NCBI RefSeq assembly: GCF_023897015.1 | Contig: NZ_JAMHFY010000004.1 | Span: 186,001 to 250,000, forward strand | DNA from: Desulfosporosinus nitroreducens | GTDB taxonomy: Bacteria; Bacillota; Desulfitobacteriia; Desulfitobacteriales; Desulfitobacteriaceae | Direction: 5' to 3' | DNA length: 64,000 nt | In this document: one piece after another, positions 9,447 through 63,184 of the stretch | Numbering within the stretch: the stretch's first letter is position 1 | Layout: each line of letters begins with the position of its first letter | Program-made: the position numbers and the translations under genes | Notes under the pieces: model-generated | What the model was told of the DNA's origin: nothing | Database searches by the model: none | The model's input: only the letters and a program-made list of their open reading frames with translations

Positions 9447-10385
9447 AGAGGGTCGCACTCACACGTAGCGACTCCTCTGCGTGAGTCGTATCCAAACTCG
9501 GCTTTAATCCGCTTTCATCCAGCAGGGCGGAAAACAGGGACGTTTCCCGCCGGCCATGCGACACGGTCCCTTCTCGCCATCCTTGGCTACAGGGACACTT
9601 GGCCATCCATGGCCTGCGGACGTCGCACTGGCCGAAACACGTGTGTTTCGCCCTGCCCGCTTGCATCCGGATTAAAGCCCTAGTTTGACACGACGACCGC
9701 ACGGCCAAGCAAGTGTTGACGCGACCCTCCCACGACAAACGAGGAACGCAACAACCGTGCTCCCACGTTCCTATTGACCCAAGAAGATCGCGTCCACACG
9801 ATCCCAACAACCGTCCACCCCGCATTCCCCTGACCCAAGAGGGTCGCGTTCACACGCAGCGACGCCTCTGCGTGAGTCGTAGCCAAACTCGGCTTTAATC
9901 CGCTTTCATCCAGCAGGGCGGAAAACAGGGACGTTTTCCGCCGGCCATGCGACACGGACGTCGCACTGGCCGGGAACCCTGCTCTCATGCATCCGGATTA
10001 AAGCCCTAGTTTGGCACGACGACCGCACGGCCAAGCAAGTGTTGACGCGACCCTCCCACGACAAACGAGGAACGCAACAACCGTGCTCCCACGTTCCTCT
10101 TGACCCAAGAAGATCGCGTCCACACAATCCCAACAACCGTCCACCCCACATTCCCCCTGACCCAAGAGGGTCGCGTTCACACGCAGCGACGCCTTTGCGT
10201 GAGTCGTAGCCAAACTCGGCTTTAATCCGCTTTCATCCAGCAGGGCGGGAAACAAGGACGTTTCCCGCCGGCCATGCGACACGGACGTCGCACTGGCCGG
10301 GAACCCTGCTCTCTTGCATCCGGATTAAAGCCCTAGTTTGGCACGACGAGCGCACGGCCGAGTAAGTGTTGACGCGACCCTCCCC
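9447..10385. repeat. Three-copy tandem array of a 220-bp palindromic element
   Basis: Three units begin GAGGGTCGC and end GCGACCCTCCC: 9447-9731, 9838-10057 and 10165-10385. They are separated by two nearly identical linkers of about 107 bases, giving a period near 327. Each unit is an imperfect palindrome: the left half (GTAGCCAAACTCGGCTTTAA) is mirrored by the right half (CCCTAGTTTGGCACGACG). The first unit is about 65 bases longer because it contains a module (about 9565-9619) shared with another repeat family. The array fills the space between cimA and aspA. No credible gene is seen; open frames here are repeats of each other. Confidence 0.85.
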
Positions 10386-20434: not shown

Positions 20435-20688
20435 TAAAAAAGCCTCTCCTCCTAGCAAAGGACGAAAAGCTTCCGTGGTACCACCTTTATTCTGAGAAAC
20501 AAACGTTTCCTCAGCTCTTGGCATTACTAACGGGTTTTTCCGTCAGAGAGTACTTCATTCCCCTCCGCCCCTCCTGTGCGACCTTAGTGTTTTCCCGAAA
20601 AGACCTTCCAGCTATGGCCCTTCTCTCTGAACGGTAATTGTCACTATTCCTCACATTCTCTGGGTTTATCTCGATTAACTTACAGTTG
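20435..20688 (-). promoter_or_regulatory. T-box leader of valS
   Basis: The minus strand contains the T-box core AAAGGTGGTACCACGGAAGC (complement around 20470-20490), followed by a terminator stem ending GGCTTTTTT at about 20436. About 200 bases of structured leader precede it. T-box RNAs bind uncharged tRNA through a specifier codon; two GTC valine codons occur in the leader (20602-20604 and 20580-20582) but I cannot decide which is the specifier. Confidence 0.93.
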
Positions 20689-22509: not shown

Positions 22510-22538
22510 TTGACAATAGGTTACACTTTACTTATTCT
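22510..22538 (+). promoter_or_regulatory. Promoter of the two-component operon
   Basis: TTGACA (22510-22515) and TATTCT (22533-22538) are separated by 17 bases, 39 bases ahead of the kinase start. It begins immediately after the family 2 repeat. Confidence 0.75.
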
Positions 22539-22576
22539 TGGCATGTACTTCAAATGATCATATTGGAGGGAGAACC

Positions 22577-24184
22577 ATGCGGATGGGTAAACCTTTTTTC
22601 AGTTTGCAGACCATCATGACTTTGCTTGTTTGCGGTGTTGTAGCTCTATCTTTAGCCGTAACCGACATCCTAATTAGTCAGGAAGTTGCCGATAATACGC
22701 AAAAGAATCTAGCTAATAAAGCGAAGAACATTGCCCGAATTGTTGCCCACTCGCCTCTTGTGATTGAAGCTCTCAATGGGCAAAGAGCCGATACGGAAAT
22801 ACAACCCTTTGCGAATGAAATACGACAGATCACCTCCGTCGAGTTTGTTGTTGTCATGGATATGAAAGGGACAAGAAAGTCTCATCCGGATATTAACAAA
22901 GTTGGACAACCCTTTGTGGGAGGAGACGAAGGGGAGGCCCTAAAGGGTCAGGAATACTTTTCCTATGCAAAAGGAACTCTAGGCATGTCCTTACGTGCGT
23001 TTACCCCCATCGTCACTTCCACTGGTAAACAGGTTGGGGCTGTTGCCGTAGGGATCTTGCTTAACGATGTGAACCAGGCTGTCGCTCAGAGTCGGCAAAT
23101 TATTTATATTAGTATTGGCTTCGGATTATTGGTTGGAGTTATTGGTGCCTTATTCTTAGCCCGAAAAATTAAAAAAGTAATGTTTGGTTTAGAACCGAGG
23201 GAAATTGCCAAAATGCTCGAAGAACGCAGCGCCATGTTAGAATCCGTAAGGGAGGGTATTTTGGCTATCGACAATGATTCCCGTATTACACTCTCGAATG
23301 CTGCCGCCTTGCGGCTATTTAATCGAGCAGGGATTTTAGGTGACCTGGTTGGGAAAAAAATAACGGACTGTGTACCCAACACACGTATGCTCCATGTGCT
23401 GGAAACAGGAAATGCGGAATTAGATCAGGAACTCGATCTGTTTGGAATAACGCTCGTAACAAACGTTATTCCACTCTGTGTAAACGGCAAAAGTGTCGGG
23501 GCAATTGCTACTTTCCGAGATAAAACTGAAATAAAACAAATGGCTGAAGAATTAACAAGTGTGCTCCTCTACGCTGAGGCCTTGCGCTCACAGGCCCATG
23601 AATTTATGAATAAATTGCATGTTATTCTAGGCATGGTCCATATGAAGTACTATGACCAGCTTTCCACGTACATCAGTCGGATCGCTCACCAACATCAAAG
23701 TGAAATAGGTTTTATTACAAGACATATTAAAGATCCGGTATTGGCAGGCTTTATTTTGGGGAAAATGAGTTATGCCCGAGAGGTTGGGGCAGAGTTAGTA
23801 CTGTTCGAAGAATGCTTTTTACCTGAACCGGCAGACCCAGAAGTGATTCACGAAATCGTTACCGTGTTTGGGAATTTAGTCGATAATGCTCTGGAAGCCG
23901 TGGTTGATTGCCCATTTAAACGGATTGAGGTAAACTTTTCCTATGATGAAGGTGTTTTAAGCATAGAAGTGAGGGACACTGGGCCAGGTATTAACGATGA
24001 GCTAAAAAGCCAAATCTTTACTAAAGGCTATTCTACAAAGGGACCTAACAGGGGCTTGGGACTGTACTTAGTGAAGCATAGTCTAGAAAAACTTAATGGA
24101 AAAATCGAGATACTTTCAGAGGAAGGTCAAGGAACTCAATTCAAAGTATCTTTACCTTATAAAAGCAAGGATGAAATGGAATGA
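22577..24184 (+). CDS. DcuS/CitA-family sensor histidine kinase
   Basis: The family senses C4-dicarboxylates or citrate outside the cell. The protein (535 residues from the ATG at 22577, GGAGGG site) has a transmembrane helix near the start, an extracellular PAS/Cache domain whose ligand motif RKSHPDINKVGQPFVGGDE matches DcuS/CitA, a second helix near residue 172, a cytoplasmic PAS domain, the H-box SQAHEFMNKLHVILGM and an HATPase domain with NLVDNALEAV and DTGPGI. Adjacent dicarboxylate genes fit malate or fumarate as signal. It overlaps the regulator gene by four bases. Confidence 0.92.
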   Translation: MRMGKPFFSLQTIMTLLVCGVVALSLAVTDILISQEVADNTQKNLANKAKNIARIVAHSPLVIEALNGQRADTEIQPFANEIRQITSVEFVVVMDMKGTRKSHPDINKVGQPFVGGDEGEALKGQEYFSYAKGTLGMSLRAFTPIVTSTGKQVGAVAVGILLNDVNQAVAQSRQIIYISIGFGLLVGVIGALFLARKIKKVMFGLEPREIAKMLEERSAMLESVREGILAIDNDSRITLSNAAALRLFNRAGILGDLVGKKITDCVPNTRMLHVLETGNAELDQELDLFGITLVTNVIPLCVNGKSVGAIATFRDKTEIKQMAEELTSVLLYAEALRSQAHEFMNKLHVILGMVHMKYYDQLSTYISRIAHQHQSEIGFITRHIKDPVLAGFILGKMSYAREVGAELVLFEECFLPEPADPEVIHEIVTVFGNLVDNALEAVVDCPFKRIEVNFSYDEGVLSIEVRDTGPGINDELKSQIFTKGYSTKGPNRGLGLYLVKHSLEKLNGKIEILSEEGQGTQFKVSLPYKSKDEME

Positions 24185-24888
24185 TTAAGGTCCTAATCGT
24201 AGAAGATGACCCTATGGTCTCTGAATTTAATAGACGTTACCTTGAGCAAGTCGGTGGCTTTGAGTTAATAGCAATCGCTCCTTCAGTTGCTGACGCCTTG
24301 CACATTTTGGATCATCAAGAAATCGACTTGATCTTACTTGATATCTTCATGCCAGGAATGAACGGATTTGATTTATTGGCACAGATTCGAAAGCTGGGTC
24401 AAGGGGTCGATGTTATTGTCGTATCCGCTGCTTGTGATAGTCAAAGCATCAAGAAGGCTTTGCGGTATGGAGCGGTTGATTATTTAATTAAACCTTTTGA
24501 ATTTGAACGTTTCAAAACGGCTTTATCCGCTTACCGGGAATGGGTAAGTATGACGAAGGATCAAGAGAAACTAAGCCAAGCAGAATTGGATATTCGGATG
24601 CTTCACCCAAACCCGCTAACCGTACCCAGTGAATTGCCCAAAGGGCTTACCCGTAACACCTTAAAGACCGTATGGGAAAACATACAAGAAACGAAGACAA
24701 GCTCATTTTCGACAGAAGAAATGGCTAAACGTGTTGGGATTTCACGGGTTTCGATGCGCAAATATCTAAGCTTTCTCACGGATATTGGAGTAATCGAGAT
24801 GGAGGTTATCTATGGTTCAATCGGCCGACCGATCTATCAACATCGATGCCTAAAGCCTGAAAGTGATTTAATAAAAAGGTATTTCTAA
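24181..24888 (+). CDS. DcuR/CitB-family response regulator
   Basis: A receiver domain (residues 1-120) with the acidic pocket VEDD, the phosphoacceptor Asp in LILLDIFMPGMNGFD and the conserved Lys in DYLIKPFEF is followed by a linker and a C-terminal helix-turn-helix (FSTEEMAKRVGISRVSMRKY), the CitB/DcuR layout. The ATGA overlap with the kinase indicates a cognate pair. Likely targets are the divergent dicarboxylate operons at 25-35 kb; I could not define its binding sites. Confidence 0.93.
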   Translation: MIKVLIVEDDPMVSEFNRRYLEQVGGFELIAIAPSVADALHILDHQEIDLILLDIFMPGMNGFDLLAQIRKLGQGVDVIVVSAACDSQSIKKALRYGAVDYLIKPFEFERFKTALSAYREWVSMTKDQEKLSQAELDIRMLHPNPLTVPSELPKGLTRNTLKTVWENIQETKTSSFSTEEMAKRVGISRVSMRKYLSFLTDIGVIEMEVIYGSIGRPIYQHRCLKPESDLIKRYF

Positions 24889-24902: not shown

Positions 24903-24933
24903 AAAAAGGTTGGGCGATATGCCCAACCTTTTT
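24903..24933. terminator. Bidirectional terminator between the regulator and the CCG subunit gene
   Basis: AAAAAGGTTGGGC, a five-base loop, then its exact complement. A- and T-runs on both sides let it serve both convergent transcripts. Confidence 0.93.
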
Positions 24934-24942
24934 GTAGTTCAC

Positions 24943-25809
24943 CTATCTGCCTGCAAGCAAGATCCCGGTGTTAACAATATGACGTTTCATCCCCAGTTCC
25001 TCGGCTGTATAGCCGAGCGCTAATCCTATCAACTGAGTCAGGTGAAGGGCCGGGATATCATCATTTGCATTTACGGCCCGCTTGCCTTCAGGTTGATACA
25101 TATCCAGTTGCATTTGACAGAGCGGGCATGGGGTTACCGTACAGTCGGCACCACCCTCAAGTGCACTCAAGTTAATAGTTCCCGTTGCTTTCATTGTATC
25201 TTCTTTGCTAGTAAAGACAGAATGGAAACCACAGCATTTCAAACGAGCATCAAACAGTACTGGCTCAGCACCTAAAGCCCGGATCAAATCTTCAAGAGAG
25301 TGCGGATTGGCATGGTCCTCAAAGCCCATAATGTGGGGCGGACGGAGAATGTGACAACCATAGTACCCTGCCACTTTCATTCCCTTGAGTGGCCTTTTGA
25401 CCTTTTTCTTCAGTTTATCCAGCCCGTAGTCTTTAATCAACATCCACAGAAAGTGGGTTACTGGGCTTGTCCCTGTATACTCGAGACCGGCTTGTTGCAA
25501 GGCCGGATTGACAAGCTCTTTTGCTCCATTATCCAATTCATGTTTAGCTTCCCGAAGCATCAAGGTGCACGTATTACATACGGTAAGAACGGGCAACCCC
25601 ATTTTTTCTGCTAAAGCGATGTTTCTAGCATTAACTGCAAGAGCTGCAGTTTTATCATAATCCTGAAGGTGGGATCCTCCGCAACAGGTCCAGCCTGGGA
25701 TCTCGACAAGCTCGATTCCTAAGGCCTGGGCTACTTTCGTTGTCGCGGTATAAGCTTCCTGGCTGGCGCCTTCTAAGACGCAGCCCGGGAAAAATGCATA
25801 TTTCATCAT
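24943..25809 (-). CDS. CCG-domain subunit of fumarate reductase/succinate dehydrogenase (SdhE/HdrB-like)
   Basis: This 288-residue protein has two CCG domains: [11 protein letters not shown] with VCNTCTLML, then [11 protein letters not shown] with [10 protein letters not shown]. In HdrB such motifs bind non-cubane [4Fe-4S] clusters, and in the archaeal/epsilonproteobacterial SdhE type this subunit stands in for the cytochrome b anchor. It has no clear transmembrane helix. The gene overlaps frdB by four bases, so it is the last gene of the operon. Its electron partner (quinone, thiol or another donor) is not evident from sequence. Confidence 0.87.
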
Positions 25810-26837
25810 TTCGCTGCCTCCTTAGGTCTTTGGATGTCTGGATTAGTATGAGCCTCAGAACGTTTCGCGTTAGCTATATTTCTTGCCTTTTCAGACTCCT
25901 TAACGGCCAGAATAATGGCACGCACTTCAGCCACTTCCTTAATCGGTTTCGGGAACATATGCGCTGGATTCAATTTCCCTTTGCTCATGAGGCGAAGCGC
26001 AAACGGTATATTGCCAATCGATTTGACGAGTCCGTCCGTCTTGACTGCCATCATGCCTTCATTTAAGCGACCTGTCTTCTGGATGTCATCTAGGAAGGCT
26101 TTTGCGTGGCGAACCCCTGAATGCTCCACAAGTCCTTTAGCAATCGCCTCTTGCCGAAGGTTAGAGATATCCTCAGCCGGAGATAGGCCTTTTGGACATT
26201 TAGTAACGCATTCTTGACAATGCTGGCATTTCCAAGCCCCATGGTTAATGGCTGCACTTAGCCGTTCAACCGGGTTCTTGTCTCGCGAATCAGCCACAAA
26301 TCGTTGGGCCTTGGTGAAAACAAAGGGCTCCAAGAAATCGCTGTTATTCCCACTCAGTTTATTACACTCTGAAGCACAGCAACCACAGAGAATACAATCC
26401 GAGTTCTTGTTAATTTTCTTAAAGTCCTCAGGACTTTGACGGCAGCCTGATTCTTTGTTAAATTCATCCTTTGGCATGAGCCAAGGTTTCAGTTCAGCCA
26501 GTCGCTCTGCCTTCGGTTCCCAGTCCACGACCAAGTCACGAATCAGTTTAAAGTTTTGGAGAGGTTCAAGAATTAAGGTGTCGCTCTCCCAACGTTTAAG
26601 CATTTTATCCAACGGTGTCTCACAGGCGAGCGTGGCCTGGCCGTTCACCCGTACTGCGCAGGCACCACAAATGGCATGACGGCAAGAGGCCGTGAAATTT
26701 AAACTGGGGTCAAGAGTCTCTTTAATCTGGATGAGGGCCCAAAGAATCGTTTTTCCGGGTTGATGGTCGAGTGTATATTCCTGGATCCAGCTTTCTTGAC
26801 CATCAAAACGTTGGATTTTAAACGTTATCTTGCGCAT
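25806..26837 (-). CDS. frdB: Iron-sulfur subunit of fumarate reductase/succinate dehydrogenase
   Basis: The N-terminal plant-type ferredoxin domain carries CRHAICGAC and a distal Cys for [2Fe-2S]. The C-terminal part has [11 protein letters not shown] for [4Fe-4S] and [15 protein letters not shown] for the third cluster. In classical SdhB/FrdB the third motif has a hydrophobic residue where this protein has its second Cys, and holds [3Fe-4S]; four Cys in CxxCxxCxxxCP spacing suggest [4Fe-4S] instead, as proposed for SdhE-type enzymes. At 343 residues it is about 100 longer than classical SdhB, with an unassigned C-terminal extension ending in a charged tail. Confidence 0.92.
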
Positions 26838-28546
26838 TAGTACTTCCTTTCTACCGGTTGGTACTTTGTAACAACCACCGGTCGATATGAGAGTTTATAC
26901 TGCGATCCTTGTTTCGAAATGATCGTGTGTTTTAAGAAGTTCTCGTCATCCCGATTCATATAGTCTTCCCGCTTATGAGAACCTCGGCTTTCTTTACGGT
27001 TCAAAGCTCCCATCACGACGGCTTTTGCTACTAAGAGCAAGTTCCCCAGTTCGGTGTATTGGACAAATGCGGTGTTATAAATCTTAGAAGGATCTCCGAC
27101 CACACATTTCTTATACTCGGCAATGAGTTCGTCAATGATTTGAGTCGCTTTTTTCATCTCACTTTCTTTGCGGAAAACCCCGACATTGTACCACATAGTT
27201 TCCGAGAGACGATCCCGGATCGAAGCAACAGATGGTCCATCTGTACGGGCTACTGTACTACTAAAGCTGTTCTCCCACTGACGGACAAGTTCATTTACTT
27301 TTTGTTCACTGCCAAAGTCCAATGTTTTGGCCGCTTCAGCCGCCGCTTTTCCAGCGACCTTACCGAACAGAACCACATCAGCCGTTGAGTTTCCACCGAG
27401 ACGGTTGGCCCCATGGATCGATAGGCACGCACATTCACCCGTTGCATATAACCCTTTAAGATCGGTTCCACAGGTTCTGTAATCCGTGACATCGATACCG
27501 CCCATGGAGTAGTGGCAACTTGGGCGGATTGGAATCGGTTGGTCAATCGGGTCAATCCCTTCAAAGGTGATAGCGAGGTCTCTGATTTGCGGTAGACGTT
27601 CTAAGATCTTTTCCCGTCCTAAGTGCCTCAAGTCGAGCTGCACATAGGCCTGCATTCCTTCCCCAAAACCGCGACCCTCTTTAATTTCTATTTCAATGGC
27701 TTGTGAAACGAGGTCGCGGGTTGCAAGTTCCAACTTCTCCGGGGCATACCGTTTCATGAAACGTTCCCCTTGATTGTTGAGGAGATAGCCTCCTTCTCCG
27801 CGGCACGCTTCCGACATCAAAATTCCTGTGCCCGCCAGACCCGTCGGGTGAAACTGAACAAACTCGGGGTCTTTCAAGGCCACTCCAGCTCTTAACGCTG
27901 CAGCCATTCCGTCACCGGTCGAGGCGAAGGGGTTGGTGGTCCGCAGCCAGTACATCCGCCCAGCTCCACCGGTTGCTAGTACTACGGTTTTAGCCATGAT
28001 CGGCTGAATTTCTCCTGTTTTCATATCCATTGCAACCACACCCGTCACCCGATCGTTTTCAACCACAAGATCTAACAGGAGCCATTCGACCAGGACATTG
28101 ACACCGTTTTTGAGACATTGCTCGTATAGGGTATGGAGAATGACCGACCCGACCTTGTCCGAAGAGTAACATGTCCGAGGAGCAGATTGTCCTCCGAAGG
28201 GACGTTGGGCAATGGTACCACTTTCAAGTCGTGAGAAGGGAACGCCGTAATAGTCTAATTCACGAATCGTTTCAGGCATATGCTCACAAAAAAACTCAAT
28301 GGCATCCTGGTCTCCGAGGAAATCGCTTCCTTTGACCGTATCAAACGTGTGTTTTTCAATGGTGTCGGTTGGGTCTGCGTTTTTCAAAACAGCATTGGTT
28401 CCACCCTGTGCACAACAGGTTGCAGAACGTGTTGGGAAAACCTTAGACATCAGAGCAACGTTAAGGCCCTGCTGCGAGGAGGCGACCAGAGCCGCCTGCA
28501 TACCAGACCCACCGCTTCCGATGACGAGAATATCGAACTTAAGCAT
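26837..28546 (-). CDS. frdA: Flavoprotein subunit of fumarate reductase/succinate dehydrogenase, lacking the FAD-linking His
   Basis: This 569-residue subunit has the FAD-binding GSGGSGMQAALVA at the N-terminus, substrate residues in VQFHPTGL, RGEGGYLLNNQGERF and PSCHYSMGG, and HGANRLGGNSTAD near residue 380. Classical SdhA/FrdA attach FAD covalently through the His in RSHTVxAxGG; here the aligned sequence is RSATCCAQGG, so Ala42 replaces His. No Tat signal is present, so it is cytoplasmic. In E. coli FrdA, loss of this His is known to spare fumarate reduction but impair succinate oxidation, so I infer a fumarate reductase. It overlaps frdB by one base. Confidence 0.92.
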   Translation of the reverse strand: MLKFDILVIGSGGSGMQAALVASSQQGLNVALMSKVFPTRSATCCAQGGTNAVLKNADPTDTIEKHTFDTVKGSDFLGDQDAIEFFCEHMPETIRELDYYGVPFSRLESGTIAQRPFGGQSAPRTCYSSDKVGSVILHTLYEQCLKNGVNVLVEWLLLDLVVENDRVTGVVAMDMKTGEIQPIMAKTVVLATGGAGRMYWLRTTNPFASTGDGMAAALRAGVALKDPEFVQFHPTGLAGTGILMSEACRGEGGYLLNNQGERFMKRYAPEKLELATRDLVSQAIEIEIKEGRGFGEGMQAYVQLDLRHLGREKILERLPQIRDLAITFEGIDPIDQPIPIRPSCHYSMGGIDVTDYRTCGTDLKGLYATGECACLSIHGANRLGGNSTADVVLFGKVAGKAAAEAAKTLDFGSEQKVNELVRQWENSFSSTVARTDGPSVASIRDRLSETMWYNVGVFRKESEMKKATQIIDELIAEYKKCVVGDPSKIYNTAFVQYTELGNLLLVAKAVVMGALNRKESRGSHKREDYMNRDDENFLKHTIISKQGSQYKLSYRPVVVTKYQPVERKY

Positions 28547-28550
28547 GATG

Positions 28551-29105
28551 TCACCTCTTATATTGTTGTTGTCCGACTTCGTAGAAATTTCGTCCTTCGC
28601 TGTCTATAGCGACGATTGCCGGGAAATCTTCGACAATAAGCCTTGCATGAGCTTCCGAGCCCAGATCTTCATAAGCCAGGACTTCGTAACTCTTAATGCT
28701 CTTGGCAATGAGAGCTGCAGCACCACCGATCGCTACAAAGTAAACCGCGCCATGCTTTTTCATCGCTTCAACGACCTCTGCGGAACGATACCCTTTGCCG
28801 ATCATGCCACGAAGTCCTTGTTCAATTATTTTAGGGGCATAAGCATCCATACGACCACTGGTTGTGGGGCCGGCAGAGCCGATAGGCTGTCCTGGTTTTG
28901 CCGGTGCGGGCCCAACGTAGTAGATAATTTGATCCGTGAGATCCGTAGGCAGTGTTTCCCCGCGGTCAAGCCCTTCAACCATGCGTTTATGGGCCGCATC
29001 ACGGCCGGTATAAATCACTCCGGAGATTAAAACACTGTCACCTGCTTGGAGACTACGAGCCTTTTCCTCAGTTAAAGGAAGTGTTATGCGAATTGGTTCT
29101 GACAT
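28551..29105 (-). CDS. Class I fumarase, beta (C-terminal) subunit
   Basis: The 184-residue product matches the C-terminal domain of Fe-S hydro-lyases. YVGPAPAKPGQPIGSAGPTT and SGRMDAYAPKIIEQGLRGMIG are characteristic, and GAVYFVAIGGAAALIAKSI carries the catalytic region. It pairs with the alpha subunit to interconvert malate and fumarate. Tartrate dehydratase is a sister family, but operon context with fumarate reductase supports fumarase. It is 14 bases after the alpha gene and four bases before frdA. Confidence 0.9.
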   Translation of the reverse strand: MSEPIRITLPLTEEKARSLQAGDSVLISGVIYTGRDAAHKRMVEGLDRGETLPTDLTDQIIYYVGPAPAKPGQPIGSAGPTTSGRMDAYAPKIIEQGLRGMIGKGYRSAEVVEAMKKHGAVYFVAIGGAAALIAKSIKSYEVLAYEDLGSEAHARLIVEDFPAIVAIDSEGRNFYEVGQQQYKR

Positions 29106-29119
29106 TTTATAGCTACCCC

Positions 29120-29965
29120 CTACAGTTCAATTTCTGCATGCCGTGTGGCATGACAGTTGATGTTAATCGCAACGGGCATACAGGCAATATGGGTGGGATA
29201 ATACTCGATATTCACAGCTAGAGCCGTAACCCGTCCACCCAAACCTTGAGGACCGATGCCACTGTTATTGACAAGTACCAGAAGCTCTTGTTCCAAGGCG
29301 GCATAGTCTGGATGAGAGTTGCGCACCGTAAGTGGACGGGCGAGCGCTTTCTTGGAAAGGAATGCAGCTTTTTCCATGGTGCCGCCTACGCCAATGCCGA
29401 TGACGATCGGAGGGCAAGGATTAGAACCAGCAGCGGTAATGGTATCAAGCACGAACTTTTTCACAGCTTCAACACCGTCTGAGGGCTTGAACATTTTCAA
29501 GGTGCTCATGTTTTCACTGCCGCCGCCTTTCGGAGCGAAAACTATTTTAATCTTGTCTCCCGGAACAATAGAAACGTGCAGCATTGCCGGGGTATTATTT
29601 TTGGTGTTCACACGATCAAACATTGGCTCTCCAACGATCGATTTACGCAAGTACCCTTCCGTATATCCTTTCGCAACCCCAGCATTAACGGCATCCTCCA
29701 AATTACCGCCGATGATGTGGACATCCTGCCCAATTTCCATAAAGATGACGGACATTCCAGTATCTTGGCAGATCGGACGCTCCTCGTCTCTCGCAATGCA
29801 AGCATTTTTAATAATTTGGCCTAAGATGTCTTTACCAAGCGGCGATTCTTCTTTTTCCTGACCTGAGACCAAGGCATCAAACACATCGCTCGTTAGATAG
29901 TAGTTAGCATCAACCGCAAGTTTGGCGATAGCCTCTGTAATTTGTACGGCTTCAATTGTACGCAT
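29120..29965 (-). CDS. Class I fumarase, alpha (N-terminal) subunit
   Basis: From the ATG at 29965 (AAAGGGG ribosome site) the product is 281 residues. It matches the N-terminal domain of Fe-S fumarase/tartrate dehydratase: IKNACIARDEERPICQDTG with the first cluster Cys, then APKGGGSENMSTLKMF and GSNPCPPIVIGIGVGGTMEK, and HIACMPVAININCHATRH near the end. The [4Fe-4S] cluster would be oxygen-sensitive, fitting an anaerobe. An upstream in-frame extension to 30037 overlaps the transporter gene and lacks a ribosome site. Confidence 0.91.
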   Translation of the reverse strand: MRTIEAVQITEAIAKLAVDANYYLTSDVFDALVSGQEKEESPLGKDILGQIIKNACIARDEERPICQDTGMSVIFMEIGQDVHIIGGNLEDAVNAGVAKGYTEGYLRKSIVGEPMFDRVNTKNNTPAMLHVSIVPGDKIKIVFAPKGGGSENMSTLKMFKPSDGVEAVKKFVLDTITAAGSNPCPPIVIGIGVGGTMEKAAFLSKKALARPLTVRNSHPDYAALEQELLVLVNNSGIGPQGLGGRVTALAVNIEYYPTHIACMPVAININCHATRHAEIEL

Positions 29966-29988
29966 CGTTTTATCCCCTTTCAATTTTC

Positions 29989-31392
29989 CTACCAAAGCCC
30001 GAGAACTTTCCACCACATGGAACCTAGACCGACCCAAATGATCAGGTTAACTATCGATGATATAAATCCGAGTTTCCACCATGTTCCTTGATCCACATAA
30101 CCCGCACCAAAGTAAATAGGAGAAGGACCCGCAGCATAGTGTGTCAAGGACATACAGAGATTTGACATAAAAGCGAAGGAAAGTGCCACCAGATAAGCAG
30201 GCGCGCCAGCGGTTACTGCCACCGAAGCGAAAGCAGCATACATTGCTGTAATGTGGGCAGTTAAACTTGCAAATCCATAGTGTGCATACATATAAACGAC
30301 GATGAGGATTAAGAATGCCCAAATCCAAGGAATTCCGGCAATGCTTGCACCGACGGTCTTGGCAAACCAAGGAATAAAACCAAGTTTGGAGAGATTATCC
30401 GCCAGTGCGACCAGTGCACCCATCCACACTAGAGTGTCCCATGTGCCTTTTTCAGCAAGGATTTCTTTCCACTCAATAGCCTTAAACATCAGCATTACGG
30501 CAACGCCGAGCATCGCTACGATTGTGGCATCAATCTTCGTGAACTGTGATGTTCCCCAGAGAATCAGTGCACTGATAAAGACAAAGGCCACAACTTTTTC
30601 TCCGTAACTCATCGAGCCCATCTTAGCCAGTTCTCTAACAGCCAATTCTTTAGCTTCGGGTGTTTTCTTAATTTCAGGCGGATAAATTTTGTAAAGAAGA
30701 TATGGGATAACGATTAAGGAAATAAGACCAGGGACAATTGCAGCAAGGGCCCAGAGACCCCAAGTTAGATTAACGTTAAGTGTTTTCGCAGCAAGTAAAG
30801 CAACCAACGCATTACCTGCCATAGACGTCAGGAACATCGCAGAAGTAATAGTGTTCCCTTGATAAGCTGTTTGCATGAGGTAAGCCCCAATTTTACGCGA
30901 AGAGGTTTCAGGTTCTGAACCGAACGCAGTAGCCAAACTTCTGACAATCGGGAAGATAACTCCACCAGCACGAGCAGTATTAGAAGGGGTTGCAGGGCTA
31001 AGAATCAAATCACTAAGCACAATGGTATATCCGAGTTTTAACGTGCTGTCACCGAACGCACGAATGAGGGTGTACGCAATACGGAGACCCAATCCTGTTT
31101 TTACAAAACCAATCGCAAATATGAACGCAGAAACGATGAGCCAAATTATGCTATTCGAGAAACCAGCTAAAGCATCTGCCGGTTTAAGCACACCGACAAG
31201 AGCGGTAAAGGTCACACTGATAAACGCAAGAGCACCGATCGGTAGGGGTTGGAGTATAAAGCCCAGAATTGTAGCAACAAAGATTGCAAAGAGATGCCAA
31301 GCTGGCGCTTTTAATCCCATCGGAACAGGCATAAACCAAATCAACATACCGACTAAAATTGGAATCAAACCACGAACCAGCTTATTATTCAA
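29989..31392 (-). CDS. DASS-family dicarboxylate transporter
   Basis: This 467-residue membrane protein of the divalent anion:Na+ symporter family (CitT/TtdT/SLC13-like) has about 12 hydrophobic segments. The two SNT-type motifs are visible: SPATPSNTARAGGVIFPI near residue 135 and SLTHYAAGPSPIYF near 420. CitT-type members exchange an incoming di- or tricarboxylate for succinate. As first gene of the fumarase-fumarate reductase operon it may import malate/fumarate and export succinate. The start is TTG at 31392, seven bases after AAGGGGAGAA. Confidence 0.9.
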   Translation of the reverse strand: MNNKLVRGLIPILVGMLIWFMPVPMGLKAPAWHLFAIFVATILGFILQPLPIGALAFISVTFTALVGVLKPADALAGFSNSIIWLIVSAFIFAIGFVKTGLGLRIAYTLIRAFGDSTLKLGYTIVLSDLILSPATPSNTARAGGVIFPIVRSLATAFGSEPETSSRKIGAYLMQTAYQGNTITSAMFLTSMAGNALVALLAAKTLNVNLTWGLWALAAIVPGLISLIVIPYLLYKIYPPEIKKTPEAKELAVRELAKMGSMSYGEKVVAFVFISALILWGTSQFTKIDATIVAMLGVAVMLMFKAIEWKEILAEKGTWDTLVWMGALVALADNLSKLGFIPWFAKTVGASIAGIPWIWAFLILIVVYMYAHYGFASLTAHITAMYAAFASVAVTAGAPAYLVALSFAFMSNLCMSLTHYAAGPSPIYFGAGYVDQGTWWKLGFISSIVNLIIWVGLGSMWWKVLGLW

Positions 31393-31843: not shown

Positions 31844-31965
31844 CTCTTACTTTAGTTATATTTTGCTTTCTTTAGTTATAAAACAGTTAACATAATTAAT
31901 TAAACTGTTTAAATTGTTTGAAAAAACTTAATATGTGGAAGAAAAGAAATTCAGGAGGTGCTTCT

Positions 31966-33321
31966 ATGAGTTTGGCTATGAAAAAGGAAGTCCCAAATTC
32001 CAATTTATCTGGGAACAAGGAAATCTCATCTTCCAGTATTTTCTCCAAATTGTCAAGCGTAAAAGTCGGTGTTCTTCCCTTACCTCTCTATCTGATCTTG
32101 GCAGGGATCATTTTTGCTGCGTCTATGTACGGTCAACTTCCTGCAGATATGATCGGCGGCTTTGCGGTCATCATGGTTATGGGTATCCTTCTCGGAGATA
32201 TTGGGCTTAGAGTCCCCATTTTAAAAGAAATTGGCGGCCCTGCCATTTTGGCTATTCTTGTTCCATCTACTATGGTCTTTTACAATTTAATTAATCCTTC
32301 AGCCTTAAAAGCTATTACAGCTATCATGAAAACATCCAATTTCCTCTATTTTTATATTTCGGTTTTAGTCGTCGGCAGTATCCTTGGTATGAATCGGAAA
32401 GTTCTTGTTCAAGGGTTTGCGCGCATGTTTGTTCCTCTCATTGTTGGAACAGCTGCCGCTATTTCAGCCGGGTTACTCGTCGGTACTCTGTTTGGTTACT
32501 CCATTCACCGCACATTCTTTTATATTATTATCCCTATTGTCGGGGGAGGTATTGGGGAAGGTATACTTCCACTTTCTCTGGGTTATTCGGCTATTTTAAA
32601 TATACCCCAAGAAGCTCTTATCGGCCAACTTATTCCGGCGGCCGTTATTGGTAATATCGTCGCAATTGTATGCGCCGGATTATTAAAACGTTTAGGGGAA
32701 AAGAAACCTGAGCTTACCGGGAACGGTGTATTGGTAAAAACCGGTGATGACTCAGAAATCTTAAACGCCAAGGGCATGGCGGATAAACCGATCGACTTTC
32801 CGCTTATGGGAGCAGGTATTCTCATGGCTTGTGCCTTTTTCATCTTCGGTAAAGTAGCGAGCCCGTTTATCGGAATTCCAGGCGCAATTATTATGATTTT
32901 CGCCGCAGCCATCGTGAAGTATTTAAATATAATGCCCGCTAAAATGGAGCAAGGTTCGTTTCATCTGTACAAATTTGTATCTTCAAGTCTCACCTGGCCT
33001 TTGATGGTCGGTTTGGGTGTACTGTACACCCCATTGAAAGATGTCATCGCTACCGTAACTATTGGATACCTTGTGGTCTGTGCTTCTGTAGTTATAGCCA
33101 TGATCTCTTCCGGATATTTCATTGGTCGCTTTATGAACATGTATCCCATTGAGTCCGCTATTGTCACTGGGTGCCATAGTGGTCTGGGGGGAACAGGAGA
33201 CGTCGCTATTCTTTCTGCTTCCAATCGGATGGAATTAATGCCTTTTGCCCAGATCTCCACCCGAATTGGCGGCGCCTCGATGATTGTTCTTGCGACTATA
33301 TTAATAAAGCTCTGGCATTAA
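31966..33321 (+). CDS. 2-hydroxycarboxylate transporter (2HCT family; malate/citrate)
   Basis: From the ATG at 31966 (AGGAGGTG site) the product is 451 residues with about 11 transmembrane segments and two glycine-rich GGxG re-entrant loops: IPIVGGGIGEGILPLSLGYS and TGCHSGLGGTGDVAILSA. These match CitS/MaeN/CimH, Na+- or H+-coupled transporters of citrate and malate. The neighbouring malic enzyme points to malate. The first 16 codons of the longer open frame are excluded because the ribosome site lies within them. Confidence 0.92.
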   Translation: MSLAMKKEVPNSNLSGNKEISSSSIFSKLSSVKVGVLPLPLYLILAGIIFAASMYGQLPADMIGGFAVIMVMGILLGDIGLRVPILKEIGGPAILAILVPSTMVFYNLINPSALKAITAIMKTSNFLYFYISVLVVGSILGMNRKVLVQGFARMFVPLIVGTAAAISAGLLVGTLFGYSIHRTFFYIIIPIVGGGIGEGILPLSLGYSAILNIPQEALIGQLIPAAVIGNIVAIVCAGLLKRLGEKKPELTGNGVLVKTGDDSEILNAKGMADKPIDFPLMGAGILMACAFFIFGKVASPFIGIPGAIIMIFAAAIVKYLNIMPAKMEQGSFHLYKFVSSSLTWPLMVGLGVLYTPLKDVIATVTIGYLVVCASVVIAMISSGYFIGRFMNMYPIESAIVTGCHSGLGGTGDVAILSASNRMELMPFAQISTRIGGASMIVLATILIKLWH

Positions 33322-33650: not shown

Positions 33651-33741
33651 GCATTCTAAAATAAGAACTTCTAAAATGCGGATCAGTTGCTTACCAATGT
33701 AATTTAAGGCATACCAAATGAGAAATCAGGAGGGTCTAACA

Positions 33742-34929
33742 ATGGGCAGTATTCAGGAACGAGCCTTAAAACTCCATAAAGAACTGGTAGGGAAACTCGA
33801 AGTCATTAGTAAAGCAGAACTAGATTCTGCTGACGATTTAAGCCTGCTTTATACTCCAGGGGTGGCAGAGCCTTGTAAAGTAATCGCTGAAAATCCGGAC
33901 GCAGCCTTTGACTATACTGGTCGGGGTAATATGGTTGCTGTAGTATCTGATGGTACAGCAGTGTTAGGTTTGGGTGATATCGGCCCCCTAGCAGCATTGC
34001 CTGTAATGGAAGGAAAATGTGTCTTATTTAAGAAGTTTGGGGGAGTCAATGCGTTTCCCATCTGTTTAAATACGAAGGACGTAGATGAAATAGTTCGGGT
34101 CGTTAAGGCCTTGGAACCTAGTTTTGGCGGGATAAATCTGGAGGACATTTCTGCACCTCGCTGTTTTGAGATTGAAGCAAGACTGAAAAAGGAAACCAAC
34201 ATCCCCATCTTCCATGACGACCAGCATGGTACAGCCATTGTCGTATTAGCGGCACTCATCAACGCATTAAAGGTTGTTAATAAAAAAATCGATGAGATTA
34301 AATTGGTGCTTAACGGAGCAGGCTCCGCAGGAATAGCTATTACTAAATTATTGTTGCAAGCGGGTTTGAAAAATTCAATTATGGTCGATCGTGCAGGCAT
34401 GCTTTGCACGGGTGAACCTTGGATGAATCCGGCTCAGAAAGAGATGGCAGAACTAACAAACCATGCAAAACTAAAAGGCTCCTTAGCTGATGCTCTGGTG
34501 GGGGCTGATGTCTTTATTGGGGTTTCGGCTCCAGGTGTACTGAATGGCAAAATGGTAGCCACTATGAATTCCGGCTCAATCATTTTTGCTATGGCAAATC
34601 CTACCCCGGAAATATTCCCAGAAGAAGCCTTAGGTGCTGGAGCGGCGGTTGTTGGTACAGGCCGTTCTGACTATCCTAATCAGGTAAACAATGTCTTGGT
34701 TTTTCCAGGTATCTTTAGAGGCGCGTTAGATGTCCGAGCTAAAGATATTACGGAAGAAATGAAGCTCGTCGCCGCCCATGCGATCGCAGGAATCATATCT
34801 GCTGAAGAGTTAAATGCTGAATATATCATTCCAAAGGTTCTTGATCCCCGAGTAGCAGCTATAGTTGCTGCCGCAGTTGCTGAAGCCGCTATTAAGTCAG
34901 GAAATTCGCGTCTATATAGAGATCTTTGA
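33742..34929 (+). CDS. NAD(P)-dependent malic enzyme
   Basis: This 395-residue short malic enzyme decarboxylates malate to pyruvate and CO2. The catalytic Tyr is in LYTPGVAEPCK, the metal site in NLEDISAPRCFEIE and FHDDQHGTA, and the Rossmann motif in LNGAGSAGIA. The fold has no C-terminal phosphotransacetylase domain. The start at 33742 follows AGGAGGG; an ATG at 33718 is less well placed. Downstream of a malate-type transporter it completes a malate-to-pyruvate branch. Confidence 0.93.
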   Translation: MGSIQERALKLHKELVGKLEVISKAELDSADDLSLLYTPGVAEPCKVIAENPDAAFDYTGRGNMVAVVSDGTAVLGLGDIGPLAALPVMEGKCVLFKKFGGVNAFPICLNTKDVDEIVRVVKALEPSFGGINLEDISAPRCFEIEARLKKETNIPIFHDDQHGTAIVVLAALINALKVVNKKIDEIKLVLNGAGSAGIAITKLLLQAGLKNSIMVDRAGMLCTGEPWMNPAQKEMAELTNHAKLKGSLADALVGADVFIGVSAPGVLNGKMVATMNSGSIIFAMANPTPEIFPEEALGAGAAVVGTGRSDYPNQVNNVLVFPGIFRGALDVRAKDITEEMKLVAAHAIAGIISAEELNAEYIIPKVLDPRVAAIVAAAVAEAAIKSGNSRLYRDL

Positions 34930-50749: not shown

Positions 50750-51152
50750 ATGGCACGACGAGCGCACGGCTGAACAAGTGTGACGCGAACCTCTCCCCAG
50801 AAAGGACCCTAAACCGTCCCCGGTACCTTAAAAGCCCAAGAGGGTCGTGATCACACGGCGTGAATGCCTTTTGCGTGAGTCGTAGCCAAACTCGGCTTTA
50901 ATCCGCTTTCATCCAGCAGGGCGGAAAACAGGGACGTTTTCCGCCGGCCTTGCGACAGGGACGTCGCATTGGCCGGGAACCCTGCCCTCTTTCATTCGGA
51001 TTAAAGCCCTAGTTTGGCACGACGACCGCACGGCTGAACAAGTGTGACGCGACCCTCTCCCCAGAACCGTCTCCCGTGCCTTCGTCCTCAACCCAAGAGG
51101 GTCGCGATCACACGACGAGCGCATGGCCGAGGACGTGTCTCGCGACCCTCCC
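50750..51152. repeat. Second cluster of the 220-bp palindromic element (family 1)
   Basis: A right-end fragment (about 50750-50800), a full unit (50839-51060) and a short deletion form (about 51095-51152) share ends GAGGGTCG and GCGACCCTC, plus CTCGGCTTTAATCCGCTTTC and CCCTAGTTTGGCACGACG, with the array at 9.4-10.4 kb. The short form keeps both ends but has lost the middle. It abuts the lon stop codon. Confidence 0.85.
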
Positions 51153-53572
51153 TAGCAGGTCGTCGGCCTCTCCTCTGATCTCGGCACCGTATCCGGTATC
51201 CCGCCCTGTCCATACACAGAATGAACCGGCATATCCTTCTGAAGTTTATCCGAATGAGCCAGCGGCAAAAGCGCAAGCTTCAACACTTCTTCAATTCGGC
51301 TGACAAAGTGAAATTCCATGACTTTGCGAACATTCTCCGGAACATCTTCCAGGTCCTTGCGATTTTCCTCAGGAAGAAGTACCACTTTAATACCTGCCCT
51401 GTGGGCTGCCAAAACCTTTTCTTTTACGCCACCAATAGGCAACACGTTGCCACGCAAGGTTATTTCACCAGTCATAGCGAGATCCGATCGAACTGATCGC
51501 TTTGCTATGGCAGATGCCATTGCAGTGGCCATGGTAATTCCCGCAGAAGGACCGTCCTTAGGTGTTGCACCTTCCGGAACGTGGATATGTAGATCGGTTC
51601 GGTCATAAAAGTCTTCTTCAATATCCAGTTGAAGGGCATATGCCCGAATAAAGGTCCAGGCTGCCTGAGCCGATTCCTTCATAACATCCCCTAGTTGGCC
51701 GGTTAAGGTTAACCTTCCTTTGCCCGGCAGAGGGGTTACTTCTACCGTGAGAACGACCCCGCCTACTTCCGTATAGGCAAGTCCCGTTACTGCCCCGATT
51801 TCAGGAGCCTTAGCCGCTACTTGGAAATGATAACGCGGAACTCCCAGCGTGGATTGTAAATCTTCAACCGTTAAAGTATGAGGTTCCCATTCCTTCTTCA
51901 CCCAGCGGACAGCTATTTTCCGACAAAGGTTGGCGACTTGTCGCTCAAGACCCCGTACTCCTGATTCTCTGGTATACCCTTGAACTAGTTTGAGCAGGAC
52001 ATCCTCCTCCAAAGTAAAGACTTCTTTGGTAAGTCCATGGGCTTCTAATTGTTTAGGAACGAGATAACGGCTAGCGATATTGACCTTCTCATCTTCTGTA
52101 TACCCACTTAGGGTAATTACCTCCATCCGATCAAGGAGCGGGCGAGGAATCGTGTGTAAAGTATTAGCCGTCAACACAAACAGAGTTTGGGAGAGGTCAA
52201 AGGGCACTTCTAAATAGTGATCTGTGAAAGTACTGTTTTGTTCTGGATCTAACACTTCTAACAGAGCAGAAGCAGGGTCACCACGGAAGTCCGATGACAT
52301 TTTGTCGATTTCATCTAGAAGAAAGACAGAATTACGAGTTCCGGCGGTACGCAACCCTTGAATGATTCGTCCTGGCAACGCCCCAATATAAGTGCGTCGA
52401 TGCCCCCTAATCTCAGCCTCATCACGCAATCCGCCCAATGACATGCGCACAAACTTTCGATTTAGGGATCTGGAAATCGATTTGGCCAAGGAGGTCTTCC
52501 CAACTCCAGGAGGTCCGACTAGGCATAGAATTGGACTTTTCATTTTCGGTGTTAGTTTACGGATTGCCAAGAACTCTAAAATTCGCTCTTTGATTTTCTC
52601 TAAACCATAATGATCTTCGTTCAGAATTTCCTCTGCCCGACTCAAATCAATTTTGTCTCTGGAAGACTTGTTCCAGGGCAGGACTAAAAGCCAATCTAAA
52701 TAAGTACGAACCACCGTACCCTCTGCAGAAGAAGGAGGCATTTTCTCTAAACGGTCAATTTCCTTAAGTGCTTTTTCCTCAACTTCTTTGGGGCATTTGG
52801 CCTTGGCTACTTTCTCTCGGTATTCTTCCGCCTCAGCTTGACGCTCATCTTTATCTCCAAGCTCTTTCTGGATCGCTTTCATTTGTTCCCGCAAATAGTA
52901 TTCTTTTTGCGCTTTATCCATTTGCTTACGAACTCTTTGCCCGATGCGCCGTTCCAATTCCAAAAGTTCAATCTCGCGCATTATAAGTTCCGTTAAACGT
53001 TCCACGCGCAGCTCGACTGACATAGCCTCTAAAATTGTTTGTTTATCCGGTACCTTCAGGTTAAGATGGGATGCCACAATATCTGCTAATCGTCCGGGTT
53101 CCTCAACGGCTAACACTGTTCCAATGGTTTCTAGGGGAACCCTTTTGCCCAGTTTGGCATATTCTTCAAACTGATGGGTCATTCCTCGCACCAGTGTCTC
53201 TAACTCCGGCGTCAGAGATTTCGTTTCCTCTTCTAATTCCTCAACGCGCACTCTAAAATACTCGTCTTCCTCAAGGAATTCAAGAATTCGGCCTCGCGAA
53301 ATCCCTTCGACTAAGACCCGCATAGTGCCTCCAGGAAGTTTTAGGAGTTGCTTTATTTCAGCAATTGTGCCCATCTCATACAAATCATCCGGATTTGGAG
53401 AATCAATCTCTGTCTCTTTTTGTGACGTTAAAAGTATAATTCGATCATCGAGCATGGCTTTTTCAATCGCGGCCATAGACCGTTCTCTGCCTACGTCCAA
53501 ATGAATGACCATATAAGGGAAAACAAGAATCCCACGTAACGGGAGTAATGGTAATTCACGTTCTTTTATCAA
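51152..53572 (-). CDS. lon: ATP-dependent protease La (Lon)
   Basis: Lon degrades misfolded and regulatory proteins. From the TTG at 53572 (GGGGGG seven bases upstream) it is 806 residues. The N-terminal substrate domain (about 5-200) leads to a coiled coil, the Walker [17 protein letters not shown], Walker [12 protein letters not shown], and the C-terminal Ser-Lys protease domain with the catalytic Ser in [14 protein letters not shown] and a Lys in [14 protein letters not shown]. The last 25 residues are poorly conserved and run into the repeat cluster, whose end coincides with the stop codon. Confidence 0.96.
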
Positions 53573-60368: not shown

Positions 60369-61673
60369 CTATTTAGAACGTTTTAGTTCTCCCTTACCGA
60401 CTCGATAAGACTCAGCCAAGATTTGAACAGTATGCAATACTTCTTCGTCAAATCCAGCATTTTCGACCCCACTTTGCAGCTGCAACCGACAAGCCGGACA
60501 ACCCGTTGCTACTGTATCCGTATTGGTCGTCTGGATATCTGCTGTTTTGCGATCAGAAATTTGTCCGGAGAGATCCGGGTGTACAAGGCTGAATGATCCA
60601 GCCATACCACAACAACGACCCGGCTCTTTCATTTCAATCAATTCCACACCGGGAATGCTTTTTAAAATTTCCCGCGGTTCTTTACTAATCCCCTGTCCAC
60701 GATTTAAGTGACAAGGTTCATGATACGTCACTTTACGCGCTACTCGACCCAAGCCTTCTTTCTTAAAGGGAACTTGATGAATCAGGAACTCAGAAATATC
60801 ATAGGATTTTTTAGCCCATTTATCCGCCAAGGCTTTAAGTTCGTGATCATTTTCAAGCAGCTCTCCAAAAACATGCTTCCAAGCAGTACCACCTGAAGAA
60901 CAGGCGACAACTAAGGCATCCGCCCCCATTCTCTCAAACGCCCGCAAATTGCGTTTGGCCAAAGTACGTGCTGAAGCCACATCCCCATTGACCGAGGCTG
61001 GGATACCACAACAAGCCTGGAACTTAGGAATGACAACTTCGATGTCATTTTCCGTAAGCACCTCGATCACCGCTCTGCCGATGTCCGTGTAAAAATAGTT
61101 GATCATGCAGCCCGTGAAGAACCCAACTCTCATCTTTGGGTTTTTAACCGTAATCACTTGAGGGAACTCGGAACGCAAGGTCTTCTTGGACAACATTGGG
61201 AACACTTTCTCCTTACCTATCCCAACATCCACGCGCATACGTGCTAATTTGCTGTGTCTATTTGGTATGTTTTTTAAGGCAACACCCTGGAAGATACTTC
61301 CCGCCTTCATCCCGAAATCAAACACCCGCTGCATTTTCAACGCAGTAAAGGCAATTTTTTTGACCGGCTGTAGCCCTTTTTTACGGACGGATTCCGCTCT
61401 TGCTGCAAGAATAATTTTATCAAACCGAACCCCACAGGGACAGTTGGTATTACAAGCCATACAGGTCGTACAAAGGGAAAAACGATTTCCCATTCCCTTA
61501 GTCATCTCTATTTCGCCCGAGAGAATGTATTCCGCTAAACTAATCTTTCCCCTTGCAACTCCGACTTCTTGGCGTGTTTCCTTGTAAATGGGGCATACCG
61601 CCATGCAATTTCCGCATTTCATACATTTATGGAGTTCTTCGGTAATCGAATCCAGTGAATCATATACGGACAC
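60369..61673 (-). CDS. glcF: Glycolate/lactate oxidase iron-sulfur subunit
   Basis: This 434-residue protein has two N-terminal [4Fe-4S] motifs (CMKCGNCMAVCPIY and CTTCMACNTNCPCG) and two C-terminal CCG domains (CCGIPASVNGDV and CCGMAGSFSLVHPD, with CHLNRG and ATGCPACRLQL). This is the GlcF layout, passing electrons from the FAD subunit to an acceptor. The start is GTG behind AAGGAGGG, two bases after the glcD stop. The oxidised substrate may be lactate or glycolate. Confidence 0.92.
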   Translation of the reverse strand: MSVYDSLDSITEELHKCMKCGNCMAVCPIYKETRQEVGVARGKISLAEYILSGEIEMTKGMGNRFSLCTTCMACNTNCPCGVRFDKIILAARAESVRKKGLQPVKKIAFTALKMQRVFDFGMKAGSIFQGVALKNIPNRHSKLARMRVDVGIGKEKVFPMLSKKTLRSEFPQVITVKNPKMRVGFFTGCMINYFYTDIGRAVIEVLTENDIEVVIPKFQACCGIPASVNGDVASARTLAKRNLRAFERMGADALVVACSSGGTAWKHVFGELLENDHELKALADKWAKKSYDISEFLIHQVPFKKEGLGRVARKVTYHEPCHLNRGQGISKEPREILKSIPGVELIEMKEPGRCCGMAGSFSLVHPDLSGQISDRKTADIQTTNTDTVATGCPACRLQLQSGVENAGFDEEVLHTVQILAESYRVGKGELKRSK

Positions 61674-61675
61674 GA

Positions 61676-63064: not shown

Positions 63065-63184
63065 CCTTATACCTCCTTTATAACGCTTCGAATATGGCAC
63101 GCCTGTCAGACCACTTAATTATTTACTAATTCAATTTAAGCGAAACTTCAATAAGTAGATATAATTCTCTACTGAACAAACAAA

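Follow-up and report, generated by a model that had tools for sequence, protein, structure and literature searches.

An operon on the minus strand of a 64,000-nucleotide stretch of the Desulfosporosinus nitroreducens genome (hereafter the window, meaning the whole of this stretch) encodes what is, judged by its sequence features, a class E (SdhABE-type) complex II, which probably works as a one-way menaquinol:fumarate reductase facing the cytoplasm. The class is a known one; the branch of it to which this enzyme belongs is poorly described, and no description of a cytoplasmic branch with alanine at the flavin site was found in the titles and abstract openings of the open-access literature on Firmicute enzymes resembling the 8-methylmenaquinol:fumarate reductase (MFR). 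The operon, as read from the list of open reading frames and their NCBIfam and Pfam matches, runs in the order DASS symporter, fumarase alpha, fumarase beta, FrdA, FrdB and CCG subunit, and the features of the locus are as follows.

22538–24184, plus strand: sensor kinase of the DcuS/MalK type (NF008298, 712.7 bits against a cut-off of 520)
24181–24888, plus strand: response regulator of the DcuR/DpiA type (PF00072; a weak PF20714 match under its cut-off)
24903–24933, no strand assigned: perfect hairpin flanked by A/T, lying where the CCG and response-regulator genes converge, seen in the printed sequence
24943–25809, minus strand: CCG (SdhE/HdrB-like) subunit, 288 residues (open reading frame; two PF02754 stretches; NCBIfam MFR_anch_SdhE)
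25806–26837, minus strand: FrdB, 343 residues, with a [2Fe-2S] domain, a dicluster domain and a C-terminal extension beyond classical SdhB (open reading frame, NCBIfam, Pfam, alignment)
26196–26228, minus strand: codons C204 to C214, the four-cysteine motif at the third Fe-S site of FrdB (SdhB alignment; position computed from the open reading frame)
26837–28546, minus strand: FrdA flavoprotein, 569 residues, with no Tat signal (open reading frame, NCBIfam, alignment)
28421–28423, minus strand: codon of FrdA Ala42, which replaces the FAD-linking histidine (PTRSATCCAQGG; alignment to solved SdhA/FrdA chains bearing RSHT, with a column check)
28551–29105, minus strand: Fe-S fumarase beta subunit (NCBIfam NF005310, 308.7 bits against a cut-off of 238)
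29120–29968, minus strand: alpha subunit of the Fe-S fumarase (with the start used in the searches, the longer open reading frame extending to 30037; NCBIfam NF004885, 406.7 bits against a cut-off of 276)
29989–31392, minus strand: DASS-family dicarboxylate symporter, probably the first gene of the operon (TIGR00785, 438.8 bits against a cut-off of 198.6)
31918–33321, plus strand: 2HCT-family citrate/malate symporter, the divergent neighbour (PF03390)
33718–34929, plus strand: malic enzyme (PF00390 and PF03949)

The FrdA and FrdB genes overlap by 1 base and the FrdB and CCG genes by 4 bases. The hairpin at 24903–24933, which is absent from the output of the terminator scan, is probably the terminator of both the CCG and the response-regulator genes. 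With symporters, fumarase, malic enzyme and a DcuS/DcuR-like pair all placed around FrdABE, the locus appears to be one for the use of C4-dicarboxylates. The G+C content gives no decisive signal of transfer, at 0.478 for the operon, 0.437 for the window and 0.468 for valS. Elsewhere in the window a T-box leader (112 bits; 20455–20669, minus strand) lies 5′ of the valyl-tRNA synthetase gene, named by eye, two adjacent matches to the TwoAYGGAY RNA (9869–10027 and 10195–10355, plus strand) score barely above the gathering score, and a 52-base repeat occurs three times at 50751–51159, immediately beyond the 3′ end of lon. A second CCG enzyme is present at 60369–63100 on the minus strand, where a GlcD-like flavoprotein is encoded with a GlcF-like protein containing two CCG stretches; this pair possibly feeds quinone.

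The third Fe-S motif of FrdB reads C204-QH-C207-QE-C210-VTK-C214-P. When FrdB is aligned by phmmer to SdhB chains of known structure, Cys207 faces the isoleucine of CHSIMNC in the E. coli protein (1nek_B) and of CHTIMNC in 3vr8_B, in agreement with the original prediction that a fourth cysteine stands where classical SdhB has a hydrophobic residue. Named genomes were scanned with the CCG alignment and the best 80 of 554 confirmed loci were used; all of the 77 FrdBs found in these loci, three of which have no usable FrdB, carry CxxCxxCxxxCP, a conservation that rules out a chance origin of the fourth cysteine. Inferred from this motif, the third cluster of FrdB is probably a [4Fe-4S] in place of the [3Fe-4S] cluster.

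The lack of an SdhC or SdhD gene in the operon, also claimed at the outset, extends to the whole genome, in which no cytochrome b partner for the complex was found. The search for sdhC elsewhere that had been proposed, now run, gave a single match to Sdh_cyt (PF01127), on contig G000:C6, and none to Fumarate_red_C (PF02300). The one Sdh_cyt gene lies directly upstream of another SdhA (587 residues) and an SdhB, and as the sole candidate it belongs to this separate SdhCAB operon, so that a cytochrome b subunit encoded elsewhere was rejected. The SdhB of that operon has the last motif CGNSQNCVRACP, with no fourth cysteine, and its SdhA keeps the flavin histidine.

Directly next to FrdB, as had been noticed, is the double-CCG gene, whose product has ten cysteines (Cys10, Cys42, Cys43, Cys78, Cys81, Cys152, Cys192, Cys193, Cys228 and Cys231), invariant in 11 of 11 and in 44 of 44 aligned proteins, the window's own included. 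The PDB relatives found by sequence are HdrB chains only, and the AlphaFold2 model built from 11 sequences (mean pLDDT 90.4, pTM 0.91) has HdrB (5odc_B) as its best fold match in the PDB, with a TM score of 0.92. Nine further residues (Asn60, Thr80, Asn101, Trp122, His153, Phe195, His196, Pro227 and His256) are invariant in the 44 SdhE-type proteins, and Trp122, His153, Phe195, His196 and His256 are seldom or never found in 28 HdrB-type proteins of the window's order. Several of the invariants adjoin CCG cysteines, which suggests that the substrate site has changed relative to HdrB, plausibly for quinol. Compared with HdrB by hydrophobicity, the subunit shows no clear membrane-binding helix, the highest windows being at residues 14–27.

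The fourth cysteine of FrdB, the ten-cysteine double-CCG subunit and the absence of a transmembrane cytochrome b anchor are the features that place the complex in class E. The earlier suggestion that it resembles either SdhE-type or thiol:fumarate reductases stands in its first half, the top NCBIfam model for both FrdB and the CCG subunit being that of the MFR, and falls in its second. The TfrAB of methanogens has an FrdA-like subunit together with FrdB and CCG modules that are fused in TfrB; here FrdB and CCG are separate open reading frames, and FrdB scores 164.8 bits against the TfrB cut-off of 385. Nor does the window operon contain an HdrA or HdrC gene, as would be expected of an HdrABC complex.

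The FrdA subunit retains the conserved FrdA/SdhA blocks QFHPTG, RGEGG, CHYSMGG and HGANRLGGNS, and at the flavin site it reads FPTRS-A42-TCCAQGG, where the solved SdhA chains in the alignment have RS-H-T. The histidine of RSHT is the residue that carries FAD covalently in SdhA and FrdA. With Ala42 in its place the FAD of the window's FrdA should be bound non-covalently, and with no covalent bond the oxidation of succinate would be expected to be absent or very poor. In the MFR of Wolinella succinogenes, Ala86 occupies the same position, the FAD is non-covalent and none of five acceptors gave detectable succinate oxidation (below 0.01 U/mg), according to a 2009 account (PMC2680327). The A86H variant described there gained the covalent bond and still did not oxidise succinate, so the alanine alone is insufficient to explain the directionality. 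FrdA also has no twin-arginine motif, with only 19 open codons upstream of its start, and would thus be expected in the cytoplasm; on this predicted location the enzyme is a cytoplasmic relative of the periplasmic MFR. The original prediction did not include the loss of the FAD-linking histidine, the lack of a Tat signal or the six-gene cassette.

Close relatives of FrdB were found in two of 82 genomes of the window's class, its own (G000) and G040. The contig in the latter, a genome placed in another genus, has the same gene order (G040:C133; L154, 1–6300) with FrdB 98% and CCG 99% identical, which reflects either a recent transfer or a misbinned contig. In an even draw across the phylum 17 of 398 genomes gave FrdB matches at 1e-45; three of these (G262, G416 and G456) are classical SdhBs lacking the fourth cysteine, leaving 14. 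The best 80 of the 554 loci from the named genomes include Sporomusa, Anaerospora, Veillonella, Selenomonas, Mitsuokella, Schwartzia and Propionispira, and also Bacilli, Coriobacteriia, Desulfovibrio types, Sulfurospirillum, Telmatospirillum and Aquificota. Leaving aside 11 of these 80 loci with no FrdA in reach and one (L074) with asparagine at the motif, 68 FrdAs could be counted, 50 with alanine and 18 with histidine. A twin-arginine signal is present in 29 of the 50 alanine-type and in none of the 18 histidine-type proteins, a count that includes one signal (NRRTFLK in L082) outside the search pattern and assigned by eye.

In a tree of FrdA with 46 rows (44 chosen loci, the window and one outgroup), the 27 alanine rows form one clade, with support of 97/89 when the motif columns are removed; the flavin site changes between alanine and histidine once and the Tat state three times. 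A tree of FrdB and CCG with 44 rows, independent of FrdA, likewise has its 26 alanine rows in one clade (98/98) with one change. All of the Tat-bearing enzymes fall within a 19-row group in both trees (99/95 for FrdA; 95/89 for FrdB and CCG), and the enzymes of the window, Sporomusa malonica, Anaerospora and Veillonella, none of which has a Tat signal, lie outside it in both. Within this group the Desulfovibrio-type rows and G236 have no signal. As histidine is present in the outgroups the direction of change would be from histidine to alanine, and the simplest history would be a cytoplasmic enzyme that first lost the flavin link, with export through Tat added later; the exact places of the long branches (L150, L157 and the outgroup) and the details of the root are unsure.

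The complete cassette of DASS symporter, FumA, FumB, FrdA, FrdB and CCG is present in 10 of the best 80 of 554 loci, those of Sporomusa malonica and Anaerospora, which are of the alanine type, and of eight Bacilli, which are of the histidine type; the gene set is therefore common to both types of flavin site. In four of the eight Bacilli loci DcuS-type and DcuR-type genes lie immediately downstream, and in two more a DcuR-type gene lies upstream. A conserved gene of approximately 115 codons is found directly 3′ of CCG in ten histidine-type Bacilli loci (for example L091:8916–9248).

The electron donor, which the original prediction left as unknown, can be narrowed on the gene content to menaquinol as the most likely candidate. 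The window's own genome has two PF02621 matches (MqnA/MqnD type), an MqnC above cut-off with a second match of the MqnC/MqnE type, UbiA and the NuoH of complex I, and so the organism should make and use menaquinone. Across the host genomes UbiA was found in 22 of 23, which rules out quinone-free hosts as a general rule, MqnC above cut-off in 15 of 23, PF02621 in 11 of 16, MenD above cut-off in three of 16 and NuoH in six of eight, the two without it being G236 and the Veillonella genome G464. In Schwartzia succinivorans (L152:7534–19838) genes for a polyprenyl synthase, tatC, ubiD and ubiA lie just 3′ of FrdABE, and Propionispira and Massilibacillus (L108 and L080) have the same cluster. This neighbourhood, which ties the Tat branch both to quinones and to export, was found in the Tat-bearing branch and not in the window's own. 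Schwartzia succinivorans gave no match to MqnA/D and none to MqnC or MenD above cut-off; keeping UbiA, UbiD and the polyprenyl synthase beside FrdABE, it may scavenge a quinone precursor.

The donor could instead be soluble, with the CCG subunit taking electrons from a thiol or disulphide partner, ferredoxin, NAD(P)H through a flavoprotein or a neighbouring dehydrogenase, and the enzyme working as a quinone-independent fumarate reductase. The HdrB fold of the subunit is consistent with this, as is G236, which has FrdABE of the same type with all of the CCG invariants and in which UbiA, PF02621 (MqnA/D), MqnC and NuoH gave no match and MenD none above cut-off (the genome is 96% complete, and scavenging is possible); at least one member of the family may thus not use quinol. 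Downstream of FrdABE in that genome (G236:C50; L150:7190–16059), and in the same orientation, lie a glycerol-kinase-like gene, one for an FAD-linked oxidase and a glycerol-3-phosphate-dehydrogenase-like gene, a possible direct route from glycerol-3-phosphate to fumarate. Among the best 80 of 554 loci, moreover, a thioredoxin-reductase-like gene follows FrdABE in four (L105, L109, L120 and L130, of Selenomonas) and a thioredoxin gene does so in three, these genes being named by eye. For the window's enzyme, however, we consider a soluble donor unlikely: menaquinone synthesis is encoded in its own genome, no such donor is encoded in the operon and the residues adjacent to the clusters of the CCG subunit differ from those of HdrB. 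That part of the alanine-type family, possibly including the window's enzyme, has its HdrB-like subunit docking with a soluble dehydrogenase or thiol carrier and needs no membrane quinone seems to us rather improbable; if quinone-free FrdABE enzymes of the alanine type exist, G236 would be the clearest case.

With menaquinol retained as the most likely donor, the enzyme might still be a class E succinate:quinone oxidoreductase that works in both directions and can also act as a succinate dehydrogenase; reversibility may likewise be a property of the histidine-type relatives (18 of 68 among the best 80 of 554 loci), some of which are encoded in the same cassette. Ala42, the separate SdhCAB with its flavin histidine in the same genome, and the import, fumarase and regulator genes, which point to the use of fumarate, make this quite doubtful. 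Membership of the MFR equivalog itself, that is, a periplasmic enzyme specific for 8-methylmenaquinol, is very improbable. The MFR models are the best NCBIfam matches for FrdB and CCG, and the alanine and the clade are shared, but all three cut-offs are missed (SdhA 732 against 1100 bits, SdhB 379 against 600 and SdhE 341 against 500) and the few open codons upstream of FrdA leave it with no Tat signal, for which two reasons the enzyme, although it would work in the manner of an MFR, is not filed as one. The SdhE of Sulfurospirillum, in contrast, clears with 565 bits the cut-off of 500 that the window's CCG subunit misses, and its SdhA reaches 1094 of 1100 bits with most of the signal left off.

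Building on the gene content, motifs, predicted fold, tree position and menaquinone genes described above, the one-way menaquinol:fumarate reductase would operate as follows. The DASS symporter would import malate or fumarate, and the Fe-S fumarase would convert one into the other. The CCG subunit, as a peripheral protein on the inner face of the membrane, would take electrons from menaquinol by way of its two cysteine-rich domains and pass them to FrdB, where they would travel through the predicted [4Fe-4S] cluster that replaces the [3Fe-4S], then the other [4Fe-4S] and the [2Fe-2S], to the FAD of FrdA, which would reduce fumarate to succinate. The separate SdhCAB could serve succinate oxidation, and the operon is probably under the positive control of the DcuS/DcuR-like pair.

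In PMC2680327 (2009) the flavin histidine is described as conserved in all SQORs except the SdhABE enzymes of Campylobacter jejuni and W. succinogenes. Beyond these two exceptions, the alanine state now appears as a single large clade that extends to Veillonella, Sporomusa and Selenomonas and contains cytoplasmic enzymes placed outside the group exported through Tat. Enzymes of the histidine and alanine types encoded in the same cassette offer matched natural pairs in which to ask whether covalent FAD and reversibility go together, and a class E structure, none of which had been reported according to a 2023 review (PMC10238741), could be sought in this family. Annotation would also be sharpened, as the name 'succinate dehydrogenase' suggests the wrong direction.

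Of the known systems, the MfrABE/SdhABE enzymes of W. succinogenes and C. jejuni, as described in PMC2680327, share with the window's enzyme the set of A, B and CCG subunits, the four-cysteine third motif in B, the ten-cysteine CCG subunit and a flavin histidine that is not conserved (Ala86 in W. succinogenes). The window's enzyme differs from MfrABE in having no Tat signal, in scoring below the MFR cut-offs and in being encoded with a DASS symporter and a fumarase. Class E SQRs such as that of Acidianus ambivalens are similar in that the cysteine pattern of their SdhB implies a second [4Fe-4S] cluster and SdhE replaces cytochrome b; they differ in the flavin histidine, reported as conserved in every SQOR but the SdhABE enzymes of C. 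jejuni and W. succinogenes (PMC2680327), and the window operon has no SdhF-like gene. The HdrB of HdrABC shares with the CCG subunit its fold and the CCG cysteines and differs in the residues beside them. Also close to the window's enzyme are the FrdABE enzymes of Sporomusa malonica and Anaerospora (L062 and L063) and of Veillonella, which have the alanine, have no Tat signal and are expected to be cytoplasmic; both L062 and L063 have the complete six-gene cassette, whereas the Veillonella FrdABE genes stand without the DASS and fumarase genes upstream.
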